From: Marinobacterium jannaschii DSM 6295
GTDB taxonomy: Bacteria; Pseudomonadota; Gammaproteobacteria; Pseudomonadales; Balneatricaceae
Length of the DNA stretch: 64,000 nt
NCBI RefSeq assembly: GCF_000620085.1
Contig: NZ_JHVJ01000022.1
Location: 1-64,000, forward strand
Direction of reading: 5' to 3'
Numbering within the stretch: position 1 is the stretch's first letter; every line of letters begins with the position of its first letter. Positions 8,133 through 14,446 of this stretch are shown in pieces. Below the pieces are notes generated by a model. The model worked only from the letters and a program-made list of their open reading frames with translations, did no database searches and was not told the DNA's origin. Both the position numbers and the translations under genes were made by a program.

Positions 8133-8452
8133 TCCCCTCTTGCTACTCCCCACATGACCGTCATATGAATAACCCAATCAACTGATAGTCTGCTTCACTC
8201 CTAAAAGGTAAGGTAAATTCCGGCCGCTGTGTGCTGGCTTATTAGAGTGTGTTATCTGCTTCAGGGAACGAGCAGTGAAAAGCAATAGGGAAGCATGAGC
8301 CTGCAGAGACAGTGCCCCCCTTCTTCTACCTCAATCCATGAGCGAATAACTCCTCAGTCCGGTATTATATGAGCCTAGCCTGATCACCGATCGGATAAGT
8401 CAGCCAGTGCTACGGATTATTTATAAGTATCTGTCGTGGAGTGATATGTAAA
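8133..8452. other. Non-coding gap between the tRNA and galU
   Basis: About 320 bases with no convincing open frame on either strand. No T-run terminator is seen right after the tRNA. Possible -10 boxes upstream of galU are TATTAT (8363-8368) and TATAAG (8422-8427), neither with a good -35. A short palindrome CCGATCGG lies at 8387-8394. The segment before the galU ATG contains GTGGAG (8436-8441), the likely ribosome site. Confidence 0.5.
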
Positions 8453-9337
8453 ATGGTTACAAAAGCTGTGATTCCTGTCGCCGGCCTGGGCACCCGTGTT
8501 TTGCCCGCCAGCAAGTCAATCCCCAAAGAGATGCTGCCCGTCGTCGATAAGCCCGCTATACAGCTTGTGATCGAAGAAGCGATTGAAGCCGGTATCAAAG
8601 AGATTATTCTGGTCACCCGCTCTGGCAAGGAAGCCATCGAGAATCACTTTGATAAACACTATGAACTGGAAGCCGAGCTGGAGCGCAAAGGCAGTAGCAA
8701 GGCGGCTATTCTTGATAGCGTGCGCAATATTCTGCCTGCTGACGTGCGTATCTGTGCGGTGCGGCAGCCAGACGCAAAAGGCCTTGGCCATGCCATCCAC
8801 TGCGCAGCCCCTTTTGTCGGAGAGGAGCCCTTTGCCGTTCTGTTACCTGATGTTCTGGTTGACTGCCGGGATACTGAGACTCACGACCTCCAGAGAATGA
8901 TCAGTACATTCAATCAGAATGGTTGCACTCAGGTAATGGTGGAAAAAGTCGCGCAGGAAGATATCAGTAAATATGGTATTGCCGATTGCAAGTACTCCCC
9001 TGAAGCCGGTAACAGCTGCAAAGTTAATGGATTTATCGAAAAACCTGATCCAGCTATCGCTCCTTCAGACCTTGCCGTCGTGGGACGCTATGTTTTTCCA
9101 GCTCGCATCATGAGCCTGCTGGCCGATACGCAGCCCGGAGCAGGCGGTGAAATCCAGCTGACGGATGCCATGGACGAATTGCGTCATGAGCAGAGCATGC
9201 AGGTTTACCGTATGAGTGGATTGACCTTCGACTGTGGCAATAAGGCCGGCTATGTCGAAGCCGTCCTTCACTATGCCCTGCGACACCCCGAAACCAAAGA
9301 CGCCACCAGAAAACTAATCAATAACCTGAGCGATTGA
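8453..9337 (+). CDS. galU: UTP-glucose-1-phosphate uridylyltransferase
   Basis: Makes UDP-glucose from UTP and glucose-1-phosphate for envelope polysaccharides. The 294-residue protein begins MVTKAVIPVAGLGTRVLPAS followed by KSIPKEMLPVVDKPAIQ, the nucleotide-binding start of GalU. GFIEKPDP and the C-terminal FDCGNKAGYVEA are also typical. The frame opens with a GTG at 8441, but the ATG at 8453 gives the canonical start with GGAG about eleven bases upstream, so it is preferred. The stop is two bases before the pgi ATG. galU, pgi and a Ugd homologue form a tight operon on sugar-nucleotide supply; by eye the DNA is more AT-rich than the flagellar block (not computed). Confidence 0.96.
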   Translation: MVTKAVIPVAGLGTRVLPASKSIPKEMLPVVDKPAIQLVIEEAIEAGIKEIILVTRSGKEAIENHFDKHYELEAELERKGSSKAAILDSVRNILPADVRICAVRQPDAKGLGHAIHCAAPFVGEEPFAVLLPDVLVDCRDTETHDLQRMISTFNQNGCTQVMVEKVAQEDISKYGIADCKYSPEAGNSCKVNGFIEKPDPAIAPSDLAVVGRYVFPARIMSLLADTQPGAGGEIQLTDAMDELRHEQSMQVYRMSGLTFDCGNKAGYVEAVLHYALRHPETKDATRKLINNLSD

Positions 9338-9339
9338 TT

Positions 9340-10980
9340 ATGCTGCAGACCGAACGCGAGGAGTGGCATTTACTTCAAGCCCACGCGAAAAGTATGAGCC
9401 GAGAACATTTATTTGATCTGTTCAATCAAAGTAATAAGCGCAGCGAAGCCCTGTCATTTCGAAATAATGACCTGTTTATAGATTTCTCCAAACAGCGAAT
9501 TTCAGAAGAAACACTACAATTACTAGTCGATCTTGCCAATGCCAGCCAGCTGCAGCAAAAGATCGAAGCCCTGTTTCAGGGAGAGTCAGTAAATCGCTTT
9601 GAACAACGCCCGGCTCTCCATATGGCGCTACGCTCTCCCGAAGAAGCCCGACTTGAGCTCAACGGTATCGATATAATTGGCCAGATCCATGAACAGCTCA
9701 GTCGGATGGACAAGCTGGTCTCTCAACTCCACTCAGCCCAGTGGCGTGGTCATACAGGACGCCCTATACGTAATCTGGTTCATATCGGTGTTGGCGGCTC
9801 TGACCTTGGCCCTCTGATGACAAACAGAGCCCTGTGTGACCTGAAGCCCCCGACAGAACATGACCTTAGCGTTCACTTTGTATCATCCATGGATGGCAGT
9901 CAGCTTTCGCTGCTACTAAAAGAGCTGGAACCTTCAGAAACCCTGTTTGTTATAGCTTCAAAGTCCTTCTCGACAATAGATACCATGGCCAATGCGGATA
10001 CCGCTTTGCACTGGCTTCGCAATGGACTGGGCGCCGAAGACAGAAAGATACTTCAGCACCACTTTATAGGCATCTCTGCCAACCCTGAAAAGATGACCCA
10101 GTTTGGTATTGCTGCAGATAACCAATTGATGTTCTGGGAATGGGTCGGTGGTCGCTACTCTTTATGGTCATGCATTGGATTCCCCATTGCAGCTCGTATC
10201 GGGATGGATAATTTCCGCCAGCTACTGGCAGGTGCCCATTGCATGGACGAGCACTTCCGGACAACCCCTTTCCTGGAAAATATTCCGGTGCTGTTGGCCT
10301 TGATTGGCATCTGGAATGTAAACTTCCTCGATATACATGCACATGCCATTCTTCCCTACGATGGGCGCCTGGCAAGCCTGCCGGCATATCTCGAGCAGCT
10401 GGAAATGGAGAGTAATGGCAAGCACACCACGATTGAGGAGCATGAAGTCAGCTATTCCACTTGTCCTATTATCTGGGGCGATATAGGCCCTAATGCACAG
10501 CATGCCTTCTATCAGCTGCTGCATCAGGGCACAGAAAGAGTTATGTGTGATTTTATCGCCCCAGCCAGACGCTATCACTGCGAACAATCTGGAAATGATG
10601 AGCTGAAAGTGCAGCACACCCTTGCGCTATCGAACTGCCTGGCACAATCTCGCGTTCTGGCATTTGGCGATAATATTCTTAAGACTGAAAATCAGGTTCC
10701 CGCCTATAAGCGCTACCACGGCAACCAACCAAGCACTACAATTCTTCTCGATGAACTTTGTCCATTTTCGCTTGGCCAACTCATCGCCCTCTATGAACAC
10801 AAGGTATTCGTTCAGTCGGTTATCTGGAATATCAATCCTTTCGATCAGTGGGGAGTCGAGTTAGGAAAAGTGATGGCAAATGAGACCTATCAAGCGCTGA
10901 CACAATCCACGGACAGGCCGATGATGGATCAATCCACCGAAGCCATTCTTCGGGAAATTCAGGCACTTCAGGAGAGCTAG
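9340..10980 (+). CDS. pgi: Glucose-6-phosphate isomerase
   Basis: Interconverts glucose-6-phosphate and fructose-6-phosphate. The 546 residues compare with 549 in E. coli. Family signatures are present: HIGVGGSDLGP, SKSFSTIDT (phosphate binding), GGRYSLWSCIGF, and ESNGKHTT with the catalytic Glu. WGDIGPNAQHAFYQ carries the catalytic His, and FDQWGVELGK near the C-terminus the catalytic Lys. The ATG at 9340 follows the galU TGA by two bases; an alternative TTG at 9334 overlaps galU. Four bases after its TAG the Ugd-like gene starts, so the three genes are probably one transcript feeding glucose phosphates into UDP-glucose. Confidence 0.97.
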   Translation: MLQTEREEWHLLQAHAKSMSREHLFDLFNQSNKRSEALSFRNNDLFIDFSKQRISEETLQLLVDLANASQLQQKIEALFQGESVNRFEQRPALHMALRSPEEARLELNGIDIIGQIHEQLSRMDKLVSQLHSAQWRGHTGRPIRNLVHIGVGGSDLGPLMTNRALCDLKPPTEHDLSVHFVSSMDGSQLSLLLKELEPSETLFVIASKSFSTIDTMANADTALHWLRNGLGAEDRKILQHHFIGISANPEKMTQFGIAADNQLMFWEWVGGRYSLWSCIGFPIAARIGMDNFRQLLAGAHCMDEHFRTTPFLENIPVLLALIGIWNVNFLDIHAHAILPYDGRLASLPAYLEQLEMESNGKHTTIEEHEVSYSTCPIIWGDIGPNAQHAFYQLLHQGTERVMCDFIAPARRYHCEQSGNDELKVQHTLALSNCLAQSRVLAFGDNILKTENQVPAYKRYHGNQPSTTILLDELCPFSLGQLIALYEHKVFVQSVIWNINPFDQWGVELGKVMANETYQALTQSTDRPMMDQSTEAILREIQALQES

Positions 10981-10983
10981 CCC

Positions 10984-12273
10984 ATGTACATAGTAATATA
11001 TGGCACAACCCTCCCCGCCCTTGTTGCGGCTGGACTACTGGCACAGGCAGGCAATCAGGTTAGGCTCCCTATAACGGTGACAGAGTTATTGTCTCGCAAG
11101 GTAACGCTGAAGGAACCAGGATTAAAAGACCTCCTAACAAAGCAATTTGAAACAGGCCGACTACAACCCTATGACCCCTCTCGCCCTCCTATTAAGGCTG
11201 ATCTTCACTGGCTTTGTCTGGAAGCAGATGAACTCCAGAAGGCCGAACAAATAGTCGATCATGTAGCAAATCACTCAGGAGGCCCTCTCTTATTCTTAAA
11301 TCAGAGCCTATTCGGCATCGGCTCTACCGCAAAGCTTAATGAGCGCCTCACAAATCAGGAGCAGCGTTGCATGGTATTTGTGCCGGATAACCTGAGAGAA
11401 GGCCAGGCCCTGAGCTCATTTAGCAACCCCGACCAGGTCATACTAGGCAGCGACTCCAGTTGGGCGATTAATCGTATCAGCGCCATGATCCGGGTTTTGC
11501 TGGGCCATACAAACTGCACCCGAATTATGTCCACCAAAGAAGCCGAATTCAGCACCCTGGCTGCCAATGGTATGCTGGCGATGCGGATTAGCTATATCAA
11601 TGAACTGGCAAACCTGGCTGACAGTATGGGAGTAGATATCGAAGTAGTACGCGATGCGATGGCCGGAGACAGTCGAATTGGCCAGCACTTCCTCAGCCCG
11701 GGCTGTGGCTTTGGCGGCCAGAAGTTTTCCGAGAACCTTCTGTTGTTCTCTGACTTCCTGAAAGAGCGTCGTCGCTCTTCCCTGTTACGCACGGTCATTG
11801 ATATTAACGAGCATCAAAAAGAGACCCTGTTCCGCCGCCTCTGGCGCGCTTATGACGGTAACCTCAAGGGTAAAAAAATAGCGATCTGGGGAGCGGCCTA
11901 TAAACCCGGCAGCGCTAATATCGAGAATGCCCCCTCGATATGTACAATTGATGCCTGCCTTGCACAGGGTGTCGAGGTTCGGGTGCATGACCCCCTAGCG
12001 CTGGACAATGTTGCCGCTCATTATCACAATTCAGATAAACTGATTTGTTGTAACACCCCTGAAGAGGCCGCTGCGGGCAGTGATGCTATTCTGCTGGTCA
12101 CCGAGTGGCCGGAGTACGGTATGCGCGACTTCCCTGCCATTCTCTCGGAGATGCGTCGCCCGTTACTACTGGATGGCCGTAATATGTTTGATCCCGGTCA
12201 GATGTCAGAGTACGGCTTTCAGTATCAGGGAATCGGACGCGGCCAGGTGCAGGAAGCCGATAGCTTATCCTGA
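10984..12273 (+). CDS. UDP-glucose 6-dehydrogenase homologue lacking the catalytic residues (probable pseudoenzyme)
   Basis: The 429 residues follow the UDP-glucose/GDP-mannose dehydrogenase fold throughout. The C-terminal UDP-binding domain is well kept (AIWGAAYKPGSANIENAPSI, VTEWPEYG, DGRNMFDP), as is the central AANGMLAMRISYINELANL helix. The catalytic positions are changed. The nucleophilic Cys of GFGGSCFPKD is Lys247 (GFGGQKFSEN), the Lys of ATKISxxNE is Arg201 (AMRISYINE), and the Glu of NPEFLKEG is Asp135 (PDNLREG). The N-terminal Rossmann motif GxGYVG reads GTTLPAL, and the GTPxxxDG loop is missing. The frame is intact and tightly coupled to pgi and galU, so it looks maintained rather than decaying. 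A regulatory or UDP-sugar-binding role is possible but unproven; ordinary UDP-glucuronate synthesis is unlikely. Confidence 0.85.
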   Translation: MYIVIYGTTLPALVAAGLLAQAGNQVRLPITVTELLSRKVTLKEPGLKDLLTKQFETGRLQPYDPSRPPIKADLHWLCLEADELQKAEQIVDHVANHSGGPLLFLNQSLFGIGSTAKLNERLTNQEQRCMVFVPDNLREGQALSSFSNPDQVILGSDSSWAINRISAMIRVLLGHTNCTRIMSTKEAEFSTLAANGMLAMRISYINELANLADSMGVDIEVVRDAMAGDSRIGQHFLSPGCGFGGQKFSENLLLFSDFLKERRRSSLLRTVIDINEHQKETLFRRLWRAYDGNLKGKKIAIWGAAYKPGSANIENAPSICTIDACLAQGVEVRVHDPLALDNVAAHYHNSDKLICCNTPEEAAAGSDAILLVTEWPEYGMRDFPAILSEMRRPLLLDGRNMFDPGQMSEYGFQYQGIGRGQVQEADSLS

Positions 12274-12296
12274 GCATCGCTACCTTGCCCATACAG

Positions 12297-12332
12297 CAGA
12301 TCTGATTCCAGTGCCGATGAATCAGATCTGTT
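12297..12332 (+). terminator. Putative terminator after the galU-pgi-ugd-like operon
   Basis: CAGATCTGATTC (12297-12308) and GAATCAGATCTG (12319-12330) form a perfect 12-bp stem with a 10-base loop, starting 23 bases after the stop. The following TTACTTTA is only a broken T-run, so efficiency is uncertain. Confidence 0.55.
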
Positions 12333-12469: not shown

Positions 12470-14446
12470 ATGCCTCAGCCAGACCACCTGCTAAACCCTG
12501 CTTCACTGGAGTGGCAAAATGAAGCCCCTCTCAGCCAGCAATATGAAGATATGTACTTCAACCTTGAAGAAGGGATTGAAGAATCAGAATTTGTCTTTGT
12601 CACAGGTAACCGGCTTGAAGATCGCTTCGTACAGGTTAAACAGTGCTTCACTATTGCCGAAACAGGATTTGGTACCGGACTTAACTTCTTCTGTGCACGC
12701 AGGCTATGGCTGGATCAGGCACCCGCCGATAGCAGACTGCACTATATCTCCGTTGAAAAGCATCCATTGAATCCACAGGACCTGGAGCGGGCACTGTCGG
12801 CCTGGCCTCAGTTCAGAGACGGCTGCCAGCAGCTTTTAGCACAGTACCCGGTCGCTGTTGCGGGCTTTCACCGCCTCAGCTTTGACGGGGGAAGAATCAC
12901 GCTCACTCTGCTATTTGGCGATGCAGCCGCATCATACAGTAAGCTGGATGCATCGGTAGATGCGTGGTTTCTCGATGGATTTGCCCCCTCAAAAAATCCG
13001 GATATGTGGCAGCAGTCACTGTTTGATCAGATGGCAAGACTCAGTCATGAAGCAACCAGCTTCGCAACCTTTACTGCCGCTGGATTTGTTAAAAGAGGCT
13101 TGCAACAGGCGGGATTTACAGTCGAGAAAGCAAAAGGCTTTGGTCGAAAAAGAGAACGCCTGATCGGCCGCTTCAGTATGGATGAAAATACCGAGACAAT
13201 ATCACCTTCCCCATGGTTTGACCGTCCGGCGGCTACAAGCGTCAGACAGGTTACCGTCGTTGGCGCCGGGCTTTCGGGTTGCAGCACAGCGGCAGCCCTC
13301 GCAGCCCGGGGGATCAAGGTCACACTGCTGGATCAGTCAGATAGCATCGCTACTGCAGGTTCCGGTAACCGGCAAGGCGCATTGTATGCCAAGCTTCCGA
13401 TGGAACAGACACCTCAGGGACAGTTACACCTGAGTGGCTTTCTGTACAGTCTGCGGCTTTTACGACAGTTAGATCCGGATCAGAATTTCTGGTCCGATTG
13501 CGGACTAATTCAGCTGGCCTGCACGGAAAAGGAGCAAGGTCGCCAGCAGACTCTTTTGGAACGTCAGCTCTACCCTAGATCGGTAGTACGGGGTGTAACG
13601 ACCAGCGAAGCGACTGAAATTGCGGGGCAAGCAACTCCCTTTGATGGACTGTACTTTCCACAGGCGGGCTGGGTACACCCCAAAGCCTTGTGCAGAGAGC
13701 TGATCCAGCATCCTCTGATCACCTGCATAACCCATCAGAAAGTGTCAGGTTATCAATATGATAGCGCCAAAGAACAGTGGAAGCTTTCGACCGCTGAAGG
13801 CAACCATTATGCCTCCAGTCACCTGGTGATCTGTACTGCGGAAGCGGCTAATCAGCTGCCACAGACTTCATACCTGAAGCTGAAACCGATCCGTGGTCAG
13901 GTCACTCACTGCAGCAGCGATGAAAGCGCTACCAAGCTAGAGACCGTGGTCTGCGGCGACGGCTATATATCACCCGCGATGGACGGGCAGTATTGCTTTG
14001 GTGCTACTTTTGACCTGCATACGCGTCATAGCGAGATCAGGGAGGAAGACCACGACTATAACTTCGGAAAACTGCAGAAAGCACTGCCCGGACTGGCTGA
14101 CTCACTGAGATCGAAGCCTAAGACTGGCCGGGTGGCCTTCCGCTGTGCCACACCGGACTACCTGCCCATAGTCGGGCCGGTGCCGGACTACGATGCCTTC
14201 GTTTACCGCTATGCCAAACTAGGTAAAGATCGCAAATGGCCATTCCCCGCTGAAGTCCCTCCGCATCACCCGGGCCTGTATCTCAATACCGGTCACGGAT
14301 CAAAGGGCCTTATCACTTGTCCAATCGGAGGAGAGTTGGTGGCCGCGATGATCTGCAATGAGCCACTGCCTGTAGAGTATTCGCTGGCGGCAATACAAAA
14401 CCCAGCCAGATTTATTATTAAGCAACTGATCAAGGGGACGATATAA
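12470..14446 (+). CDS. mnmC: Bifunctional tRNA mnm5s2U34 biosynthesis protein MnmC
   Basis: Finishes the wobble-uridine modification mnm5s2U: the FAD-dependent C-terminal domain removes the carboxymethyl group, and the N-terminal domain adds a methyl group from SAM. In the 658 residues, the methyltransferase half shows AETGFGTGLNF (about 64-73) and DAWFLDGFAPSKNPDMW (about 164-180). The oxidoreductase half starts with the dinucleotide-binding motif VTVVGAGLSGCSTAAA (about 261-276) and has GSGNRQGALYAK, typical of the family. The length matches E. coli MnmC (668). It stands alone on the plus strand. TATACT at 12437-12442 is a possible -10 but has a poor -35. Confidence 0.97.
   Translation: MPQPDHLLNPASLEWQNEAPLSQQYEDMYFNLEEGIEESEFVFVTGNRLEDRFVQVKQCFTIAETGFGTGLNFFCARRLWLDQAPADSRLHYISVEKHPLNPQDLERALSAWPQFRDGCQQLLAQYPVAVAGFHRLSFDGGRITLTLLFGDAAASYSKLDASVDAWFLDGFAPSKNPDMWQQSLFDQMARLSHEATSFATFTAAGFVKRGLQQAGFTVEKAKGFGRKRERLIGRFSMDENTETISPSPWFDRPAATSVRQVTVVGAGLSGCSTAAALAARGIKVTLLDQSDSIATAGSGNRQGALYAKLPMEQTPQGQLHLSGFLYSLRLLRQLDPDQNFWSDCGLIQLACTEKEQGRQQTLLERQLYPRSVVRGVTTSEATEIAGQATPFDGLYFPQAGWVHPKALCRELIQHPLITCITHQKVSGYQYDSAKEQWKLSTAEGNHYASSHLVICTAEAANQLPQTSYLKLKPIRGQVTHCSSDESATKLETVVCGDGYISPAMDGQYCFGATFDLHTRHSEIREEDHDYNFGKLQKALPGLADSLRSKPKTGRVAFRCATPDYLPIVGPVPDYDAFVYRYAKLGKDRKWPFPAEVPPHHPGLYLNTGHGSKGLITCPIGGELVAAMICNEPLPVEYSLAAIQNPARFIIKQLIKGTI

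Follow-up and report, generated by a model that had tools for sequence, protein, structure and literature searches.

UDP-glucose dehydrogenase (UGD) is a textbook enzyme, and GalF has been described as a regulator of GalU. GalF (TIGR01105, 'GalU regulator GalF') is an example of a same-pathway paralogue acting as a regulator; it derives from GalU and not from UGD, and is used here as an analogy only. The closest described systems for the protein reported below are the long bacterial UGDs (PDB 2y0c/2y0e and 3gg2) and human UGDH, whose numbering is used for residue roles, and statements about the pocket rest on alignment to these proteins. The roles in UGD of the GxGYVG Tyr, the beta-2 Asp, Asn224, Glu161, Glu165 and the FK and DGRN motifs are those commonly assigned to them. 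Those of Cys276, Lys220, Asp280 and Arg260 in human UGDH follow passages of PMC3184952, in which Arg260 contacts the glucose across the dimer.

A second described system is the capsule (K) locus of Acinetobacter baumannii. According to passages of PMC9676051, ugd is one of eight genes present at every described A. baumannii K locus, and falls into two homology groups that account for 97.9% and 2.1% of K loci. Parts of PMC9676051 and PMC3628348 always place galU, ugd, gpi and pgm in region 3 and list ugd as UDP-GlcA-forming, and ugd is treated as a capsule gene in sections of two A. baumannii phage studies (PMC10904470 and PMC13340115). No paper on a pseudoenzyme form of UGD, or on a bacterial pseudoenzyme linked to phosphoglucose isomerase (PGI) or UDP-glucose, was found in open-licence PubMed Central; the UGD form may have been described elsewhere.

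In the window, the whole 64,000-nucleotide stretch of Marinobacterium jannaschii DSM 6295 DNA analysed here, an uninterrupted frame of 429 codons starting with an ATG at position 10984 encodes a protein with the three-domain UGD/MGDP architecture (all three Pfam UGD domains above cut-off, at 83.3, 81.8 and 35.2 bits). Its best matches among PDB sequences are solved UGDs (3gg2, 1e-58; 2y0e/2y0c). It shares with the long bacterial UGDs and human UGDH the three-domain sequence architecture and the UDP-side residues, but differs from them in lacking the catalytic Cys, the NAD motif and the GTP/EDGSADL loop and in having a changed Glu161. The NCBIfam subfamily model TIGR03026 (nucleotide sugar dehydrogenase) is just passed by the window protein (202.1 bits against a curated cut-off of 189.8) and by an A. 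baumannii member (192.8 bits), and neither of the two reaches the cut-off of any NCBIfam equivalog model. TIGR03026 names a dehydrogenase activity that the residues of the window protein do not allow. As judged from the alignment, this protein is a conserved, putative pseudoenzyme of the UGD family that has kept the UDP-sugar side and lost the residues of NAD-dependent, Cys-based oxidation, and it is very probably not a UGD enzyme.

The gene lies downstream of galU and pgi (Table 1), both of which carry the usual motifs of their families. The mechanically placed pgi start, a TTG at 9334, lies just inside galU, which ends at 9337, only 3 bp separate the pgi stop from the UGD-like ATG, and the likely ribosome-binding site of the UGD-like gene lies inside the end of pgi. 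A hairpin directly 3' of the UGD-like gene possibly marks the end of the transcription unit; no T run follows it. By its layout, galU-pgi-UGD-like looks like one unit. The next gene in the window and in several relatives is mnmC (12470-14446 in the window). Its product shares 62-65% identity in five of six pairs from the genus and so diverges faster than those of galU, pgi and the UGD-like gene (at least 81%).

Table 1. Features of the galU-pgi-UGD-like cluster and of its UGD-like protein (positions in the window).
Feature	Position	Strand	Evidence
galU, UTP-glucose-1-phosphate uridylyltransferase	8441..9337	+	NCBIfam; usual motifs present
pgi, glucose-6-phosphate isomerase, of the lineage paired with the Cys-less family	9334..10980	+	Usual motifs present
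AGGAGAG, likely ribosome-binding site of the UGD-like gene, inside the pgi end	10970..10976	+	Sequence; inference
Putative Cys-less UGD-family pseudoenzyme, 429 aa	10984..12273	+	ORF call, Pfam, PDB matches, family alignment
Degenerate Rossmann motif GTTLPAL replacing GxGYVGL	11002..11022	+	G-Y-V-G fixed in 84/84 canonical
Asp135 replacing Glu161	11386..11388	+	E in 104/104 canonical, 14/135 family
Thr191 at the true catalytic Lys220 position (AExxK.AAN)	11554..11556	+	Lys in 127/135 family members
Arg201, ordinary K/R position of 'ATK/RIS'	11584..11586	+	K 74, R 10 in 84 canonical UGDs
Arg231, equivalent to human UGDH Arg260, invariant	11674..11676	+	Conservation 1.00 in family and canonical groups
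Lys247 at the catalytic Cys276 position	11722..11724	+	Cys in 0/135 family, 104/104 canonical
Asn251 at the Asp280 position	11734..11736	+	Asp in 93/135 family, 104/104 canonical
Lys307, FK motif, C-terminal (UDP-binding) domain, invariant	11902..11904	+	Family alignment
Arg399 of DGRN, C-terminal (UDP-binding) domain, invariant	12178..12180	+	Family alignment
Hairpin directly 3' of the UGD-like gene, possibly the transcription unit end	12295..12332	+	-18.8 kcal/mol, z -3.56

We compared the window protein with its relatives in a combined alignment of 135 family members (134 distinct, with one identical pair) and 104 canonical UGDs, which are reduced to 74 and 68 at 80% identity. Left out of the counts were L234, which the ORF rule had truncated at its start and whose loop (GFGGPNF) is also Cys-less, the repeat proteins L156 and L169, canonical rows of 400 aa or fewer, and A. 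baumannii L204. The catalytic Cys of the GGxCFPKD loop is absent from the window protein, and across the family the same column contains N (68), G (26), S (18), H (11), K (6), Q (3), T (1), V (1) and A (1). Gln246 stands at Ser275, and neither Lys220 nor Asp280 has its equivalent in the window protein (Thr191 and Asn251). The Lys220 column of the family reads K in 127 proteins, R in 3, T in 4 and S in 1; the T and S residues all belong to the five genomes from the window's genus, and R to three further relatives. At the NAD site, Leu10 occupies the position of the GxGYVG Tyr, a residue found in none of the 135 family members, and Ile30 that of the acidic residue after beta 2, which is kept as Asp in less than 20% of the 74 non-redundant members. 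The canonical loop GTPxxEDGSADL is gone from the window protein and its conserved A-D-L triplet is deleted. Asn224 is kept as Asn195 (46 of 135 family members retain it), and 118 of the 135 keep the equivalent of Glu165.

A sequence-only reading of this DNA had described an intact, full-length UGD homologue with an unbroken frame, in which the Cys nucleophile had become Lys247, the catalytic Glu had become Asp135, GxGYVG read GTTLPAL and the GTP-loop was missing. Alignment to solved UGDs bears out all of this, with the GTP-loop taken as GTPxxEDGSADL, and the residues support its expectation that the protein should be unable to form UDP-glucuronate through the UGD mechanism. As contrary evidence it had named relatives that share the arrangement and retain the Cys; none appeared among the 135. 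The same reading was right that the catalytic Lys is lost but wrong in locating it at Arg201, ten residues beyond its true position; this was a misalignment, as the Arg201 column holds K or R in canonical UGDs and reads ATRISFMNE in those of the PDB. Nor is the Lys/Arg/Asp set, whose conservation it had proposed to check, the conserved signature: what characterizes the family is that the Cys, the GxGYVG Tyr and the NAD site are lost, with the catalytic Lys usually kept.

With domain limits set by us at residues 180 and 293, the family has lost 38 of the columns that are fixed in canonical UGDs: the NAD domain accounts for 23, the central domain, where the catalytic loop lies, for 11 and the C-terminal domain for 4. 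Another 47 columns are conserved in both groups (8, 19 and 20 in the respective domains), and those of the central and C-terminal domains include Arg231, Gly244-Gly245, Lys307, Asp397 and Arg399-Asn400. The UDP-glucose contact residues represented by Arg260 and by the FK and DGRN motifs are present in the window protein as Arg231, Lys307 and Arg399. This pattern of losses predicts binding of a UDP-sugar without NAD or turnover.

Cys-less proteins were found in seven families of the window's class, in Acinetobacter and in numerous bacteria of marine origin (family labels are arbitrary numbers, f1 being the home family of the window). A search for relatives at 1e-20, which also picked up canonical UGDs, returned matches in 42 of 57 genomes; within f1 the UGD-like gene is present in 29 of 36 genomes, and the loop is Cys-less in all 29 loci read. 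A scan of titled records, from which 80 loci were retained, added Motiliproteus sediminis (L033) and Candidatus Acinetobacter avistercoris (L034); the remaining 78 carry SCFPKD. The order was searched across 390 genomes, the best 30 loci were read and further members were added. In the genus of genome G284, 96 of 99 genomes gave a match at 1e-15 (best scores 354-670 bits), and the loop is Cys-less in all of the best 30 loci read. Family f43 matched in 36 of 46 genomes at 6.5e-90 or better and f37 in 80 of 81 at 1e-60, canonical UGDs included, with a full-length match better than 1e-85 in 67; each of the 41 newly read loci from these two families is Cys-less. A profile search of 274 genomes of the class yielded at least four further Cys-less proteins in three other families (L255-L258), with a score gap between the Cys-less proteins (at least 476 bits) and the matches below (at most 445 bits), of which the 24 loci read are canonical. 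One f37 copy (G107:C1:2369482-2370609) matches only up to query residue 373 and contains two in-frame TGA codons; it may be a genuine pseudogene or reflect an error in sequencing.

A first tree covered 128 proteins, of which the 91 Cys-less ones form a single clade with an SH-aLRT of 100; its stem measures 1.32 changes per site, and gammaproteobacterial UGDs lie next to it. A second sample with four extra members gave the same split (35 versus 20, SH-aLRT 100). Both trees were built quickly and without bootstrapping, and in each of them the window protein falls in the Cys-less clade together with the Acinetobacter K-locus Ugd. The members from G024 and G010 (L027 and L031; loci L130 and L134) are a fast-evolving sub-branch, with a long branch of 1.42, and have pgi but no galU directly beside them.

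Gene context was read on the same strand at 93 loci, with a flank of 1.5 kb in most. galU and/or pgi lie beside the UGD-like gene at 90 of these loci (29 of 30 in f1 plus Motiliproteus, 31 of 31 in Acinetobacter, 26 of 28 in the order sample and all four in the class sample), and pgi at 81. The order of genes varies: pgi precedes the UGD-like gene in f1 and in the class sample, the arrangement is galU-UGD-pgi in f43 and Acinetobacter, and in 6-kb flanks galU comes before pgi at many f1 loci, though not all. In f37, pgi is absent from the flank at all ten loci, eight of which have galU only and two neither gene. The loci with neither galU nor pgi in the flank are L028, L154 and L166, and the neighbours at L154 are a methyltransferase gene and one for a TamA-type Omp85 protein. 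L188 is the sole Acinetobacter locus of the 31 without pgi in the downstream flank.

Several f1 genomes encode two PGIs of separate lineages (L291-L310 and L113-L141), only one of which was seen beside the UGD-like gene. A branch with an SH-aLRT of 99 sets 18 of 20 fetched non-adjacent PGIs apart from the 33 adjacent ones; ten of the 18 are second copies in genomes with the UGD-like gene and eight come from genomes without it. The other two, L297 and L307, belong to the paired lineage or fall close to it without being adjacent to the gene, and the L307 genome has no UGD-like gene. A PGI at least 53% identical to that of the window is present in 29 of 29 f1 genomes with the gene and in none of the seven without it (best 50%), a pattern that comes from one family and hence provides no independent evidence.

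Linkage to PGI and GalU in several arrangements, with one PGI lineage adjacent, predicts a partner role at the node of fructose-6-phosphate, glucose-6-phosphate and UDP-glucose. We therefore propose, at a probability of about one half, that the window protein is a non-catalytic, UDP-sugar-binding partner that tunes PGI and GalU. It would bind UDP-glucose or a close UDP-sugar without turnover and contact its operon partner glucose-6-phosphate isomerase, GalU or both, and this contact would adjust the flow between fructose-6-phosphate, glucose-6-phosphate and UDP-glucose that feeds surface polysaccharide. Ligand binding, physical partnership and the direction of control are all elements that we infer. 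Several observations speak against a regulatory role. Adjacency to galU and pgi fits mere co-expression as well, the retention of Lys220, Glu165 and Asp280 in many members leaves room for other chemistry, the L307 genome lacks a UGD-like gene, and the expected adjacency is missing for L297, at the f37 loci and at L028.

Such retained residues would be needed by a neofunctionalised enzyme that binds a UDP-sugar and carries out an NAD-free reaction through the Lys, Glu165 and often the Asp. This alternative, which we consider unlikely, draws on the conservation of Lys220 (127/135), Glu165 (118/135) and Asp280 (93/135) and on 21 columns in which the family has a fixed residue of its own, among them Trp287 (74 of 74 non-redundant members), Arg284, Ala327 and Gln328. 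However, the Lys is lost throughout the window's genus (T or S in 5 of 5), and there is wide variation at Asn224, Ser275 and Cys276, unlike what a constrained active site would show.

The gene linkage and the single adjacent PGI lineage would also be explained if the protein served PGI or GalU in a purely structural way, as a scaffold or chaperone-like partner, and had ceased to bind sugar nucleotides, and the family-specific FRKLW-type segment is in keeping with this idea. Yet the UDP-side positions are still invariant and are not obviously needed by a pure scaffold, and we find such a role quite improbable.

Participation in UGD activity itself, either by an atypical mechanism or by joining a canonical UGD in a mixed oligomer as its non-catalytic subunit, appears very unlikely. 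A partner would be available: the window's own genome encodes one further long-type UGD on another contig (L002, with a normal GYGGSCFPKD loop), and also a weaker UGD relative (L003), and four other genomes of the genus (L113, L114, L115 and L140) have a canonical UGD gene upstream of their galU-pgi-UGD-like cluster. Against this, the NAD motif and the Cys are both gone, and 12 of the 29 f1 genomes with the gene have no second match at 1e-20, although a 388-aa UGD relative lies nearby in two of those 12 (L133 and L137). In Acinetobacter, an E. coli-type UGD match is found in 41 of 99 genomes as opposed to a UGD-like gene in 96 of 99, and passages of PMC9676051 assign glucuronate-bearing capsules to the extra genes ugd2-ugd5.

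That the gene is a decaying pseudogene of one strain, as missing catalytic residues alone might suggest, is ruled out by the intact frame, the low dN/dS and the orthologues in 29 of 36 f1 genomes and in other families. Selection on the UGD-like gene is strongly purifying where measurable (Nei-Gojobori dN/dS, own script). In Acinetobacter, the median dN/dS was 0.055 over the 59 usable of 465 pairs, which are not independent. In the window's genus, L004/L005 was the only unsaturated pair of ten and gave 0.016, the other nine being uninformative owing to saturated synonymous sites. The same two genomes gave 0.021 for pgi, 0.039 for galU, 0.031 for the canonical UGD and 0.073 for mnmC. The view of the sequence-only reading that this is a maintained protein and not debris, coupled to galU and pgi, thus holds, and the relaxed selection that would have spoken against it was not observed.

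The genus of G284 is presumably Acinetobacter, because it groups with L034 and because a protein from G496 (L184) differs from A. baumannii L202 at only 2 of 420 residues. By our own ORF comparison, galU, the UGD-like gene and gpi stand side by side in A. baumannii L202, L203 and L204, and the UGD-like protein of these three reads GTTLHA, PDVIQEG and GGENFSHD, with GGENF where canonical UGDs have GGSCF. The K-locus ugd is thus a member of the Cys-less family in these three sequences. The K-locus Ugd resembles the window protein in its clade, its Cys-less loop and its neighbours, but it keeps the Lys220 equivalent, and the order is galU-ugd-gpi instead of galU-pgi-ugd. A Cys-less K-locus ugd would explain why extra ugd2-ugd5 genes have been assigned to glucuronate-containing capsules; passages of PMC9676051 give D-GlcA as the sugar predicted from ugd2-ugd5 at 24 of 237 K loci. 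The E. coli-type UGD matches in Acinetobacter score at least 500 bits, all below the curated cut-off of the model, and the eight proteins read carry GYGGYCLPKD and PEFL.

Phage phenotypes suggest that the A. baumannii gene matters, on the assumption that the ugd of the strains concerned belongs to the family. As reported in parts of PMC13340115, a phage-resistant isolate of a KL34 strain carries a one-base ugd frameshift, and deletion of ugd in a KL34 strain led to phage tolerance, from which the state of the capsule was inferred. The word 'complemented' is absent from the text of PMC13340115 on this knockout, and polarity is possible because ugd precedes gpi. In another phage-resistant mutant an IS element has inserted into ugd at position 1,137, according to a passage of PMC10904470, and a section of PMC6872806 places ugd among the K-locus transcripts most raised in pleural fluid.

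On a broader and more tentative reading, which is possible rather than probable, a widespread but so far unrecognised family of dead UGDs would act as a UDP-glucose-gated controller of a dedicated PGI lineage, and of GalU, and would include the ugd of nearly every A. baumannii capsule locus. Its stated product, UDP-glucuronate, would then be wrong, and loss of the gene would affect the capsule non-catalytically. Such a controller would work as a metabolic valve where central metabolism feeds into surface polysaccharide, and it raises the question of whether a non-catalytic UDP-sugar binder sets the balance of glucose-6-phosphate, fructose-6-phosphate and UDP-glucose. The job of the gene named ugd is probably not the one in its name. 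If the protein is a pseudoenzyme, predictions of capsule composition and metabolic annotations have to be corrected wherever they count ugd as a UDP-glucose dehydrogenase, and there is an explanation for why ugd2-ugd5 exist. The three A. baumannii sequences (L202, L203 and L204; NZ_CP077849.1, NZ_CP064203.1 and NZ_CP104448.1) are filed in PLSDB as plasmids, typed mobilizable or conjugative and without gene annotation; at 3.66-4.09 Mb, they are evidently chromosomes.
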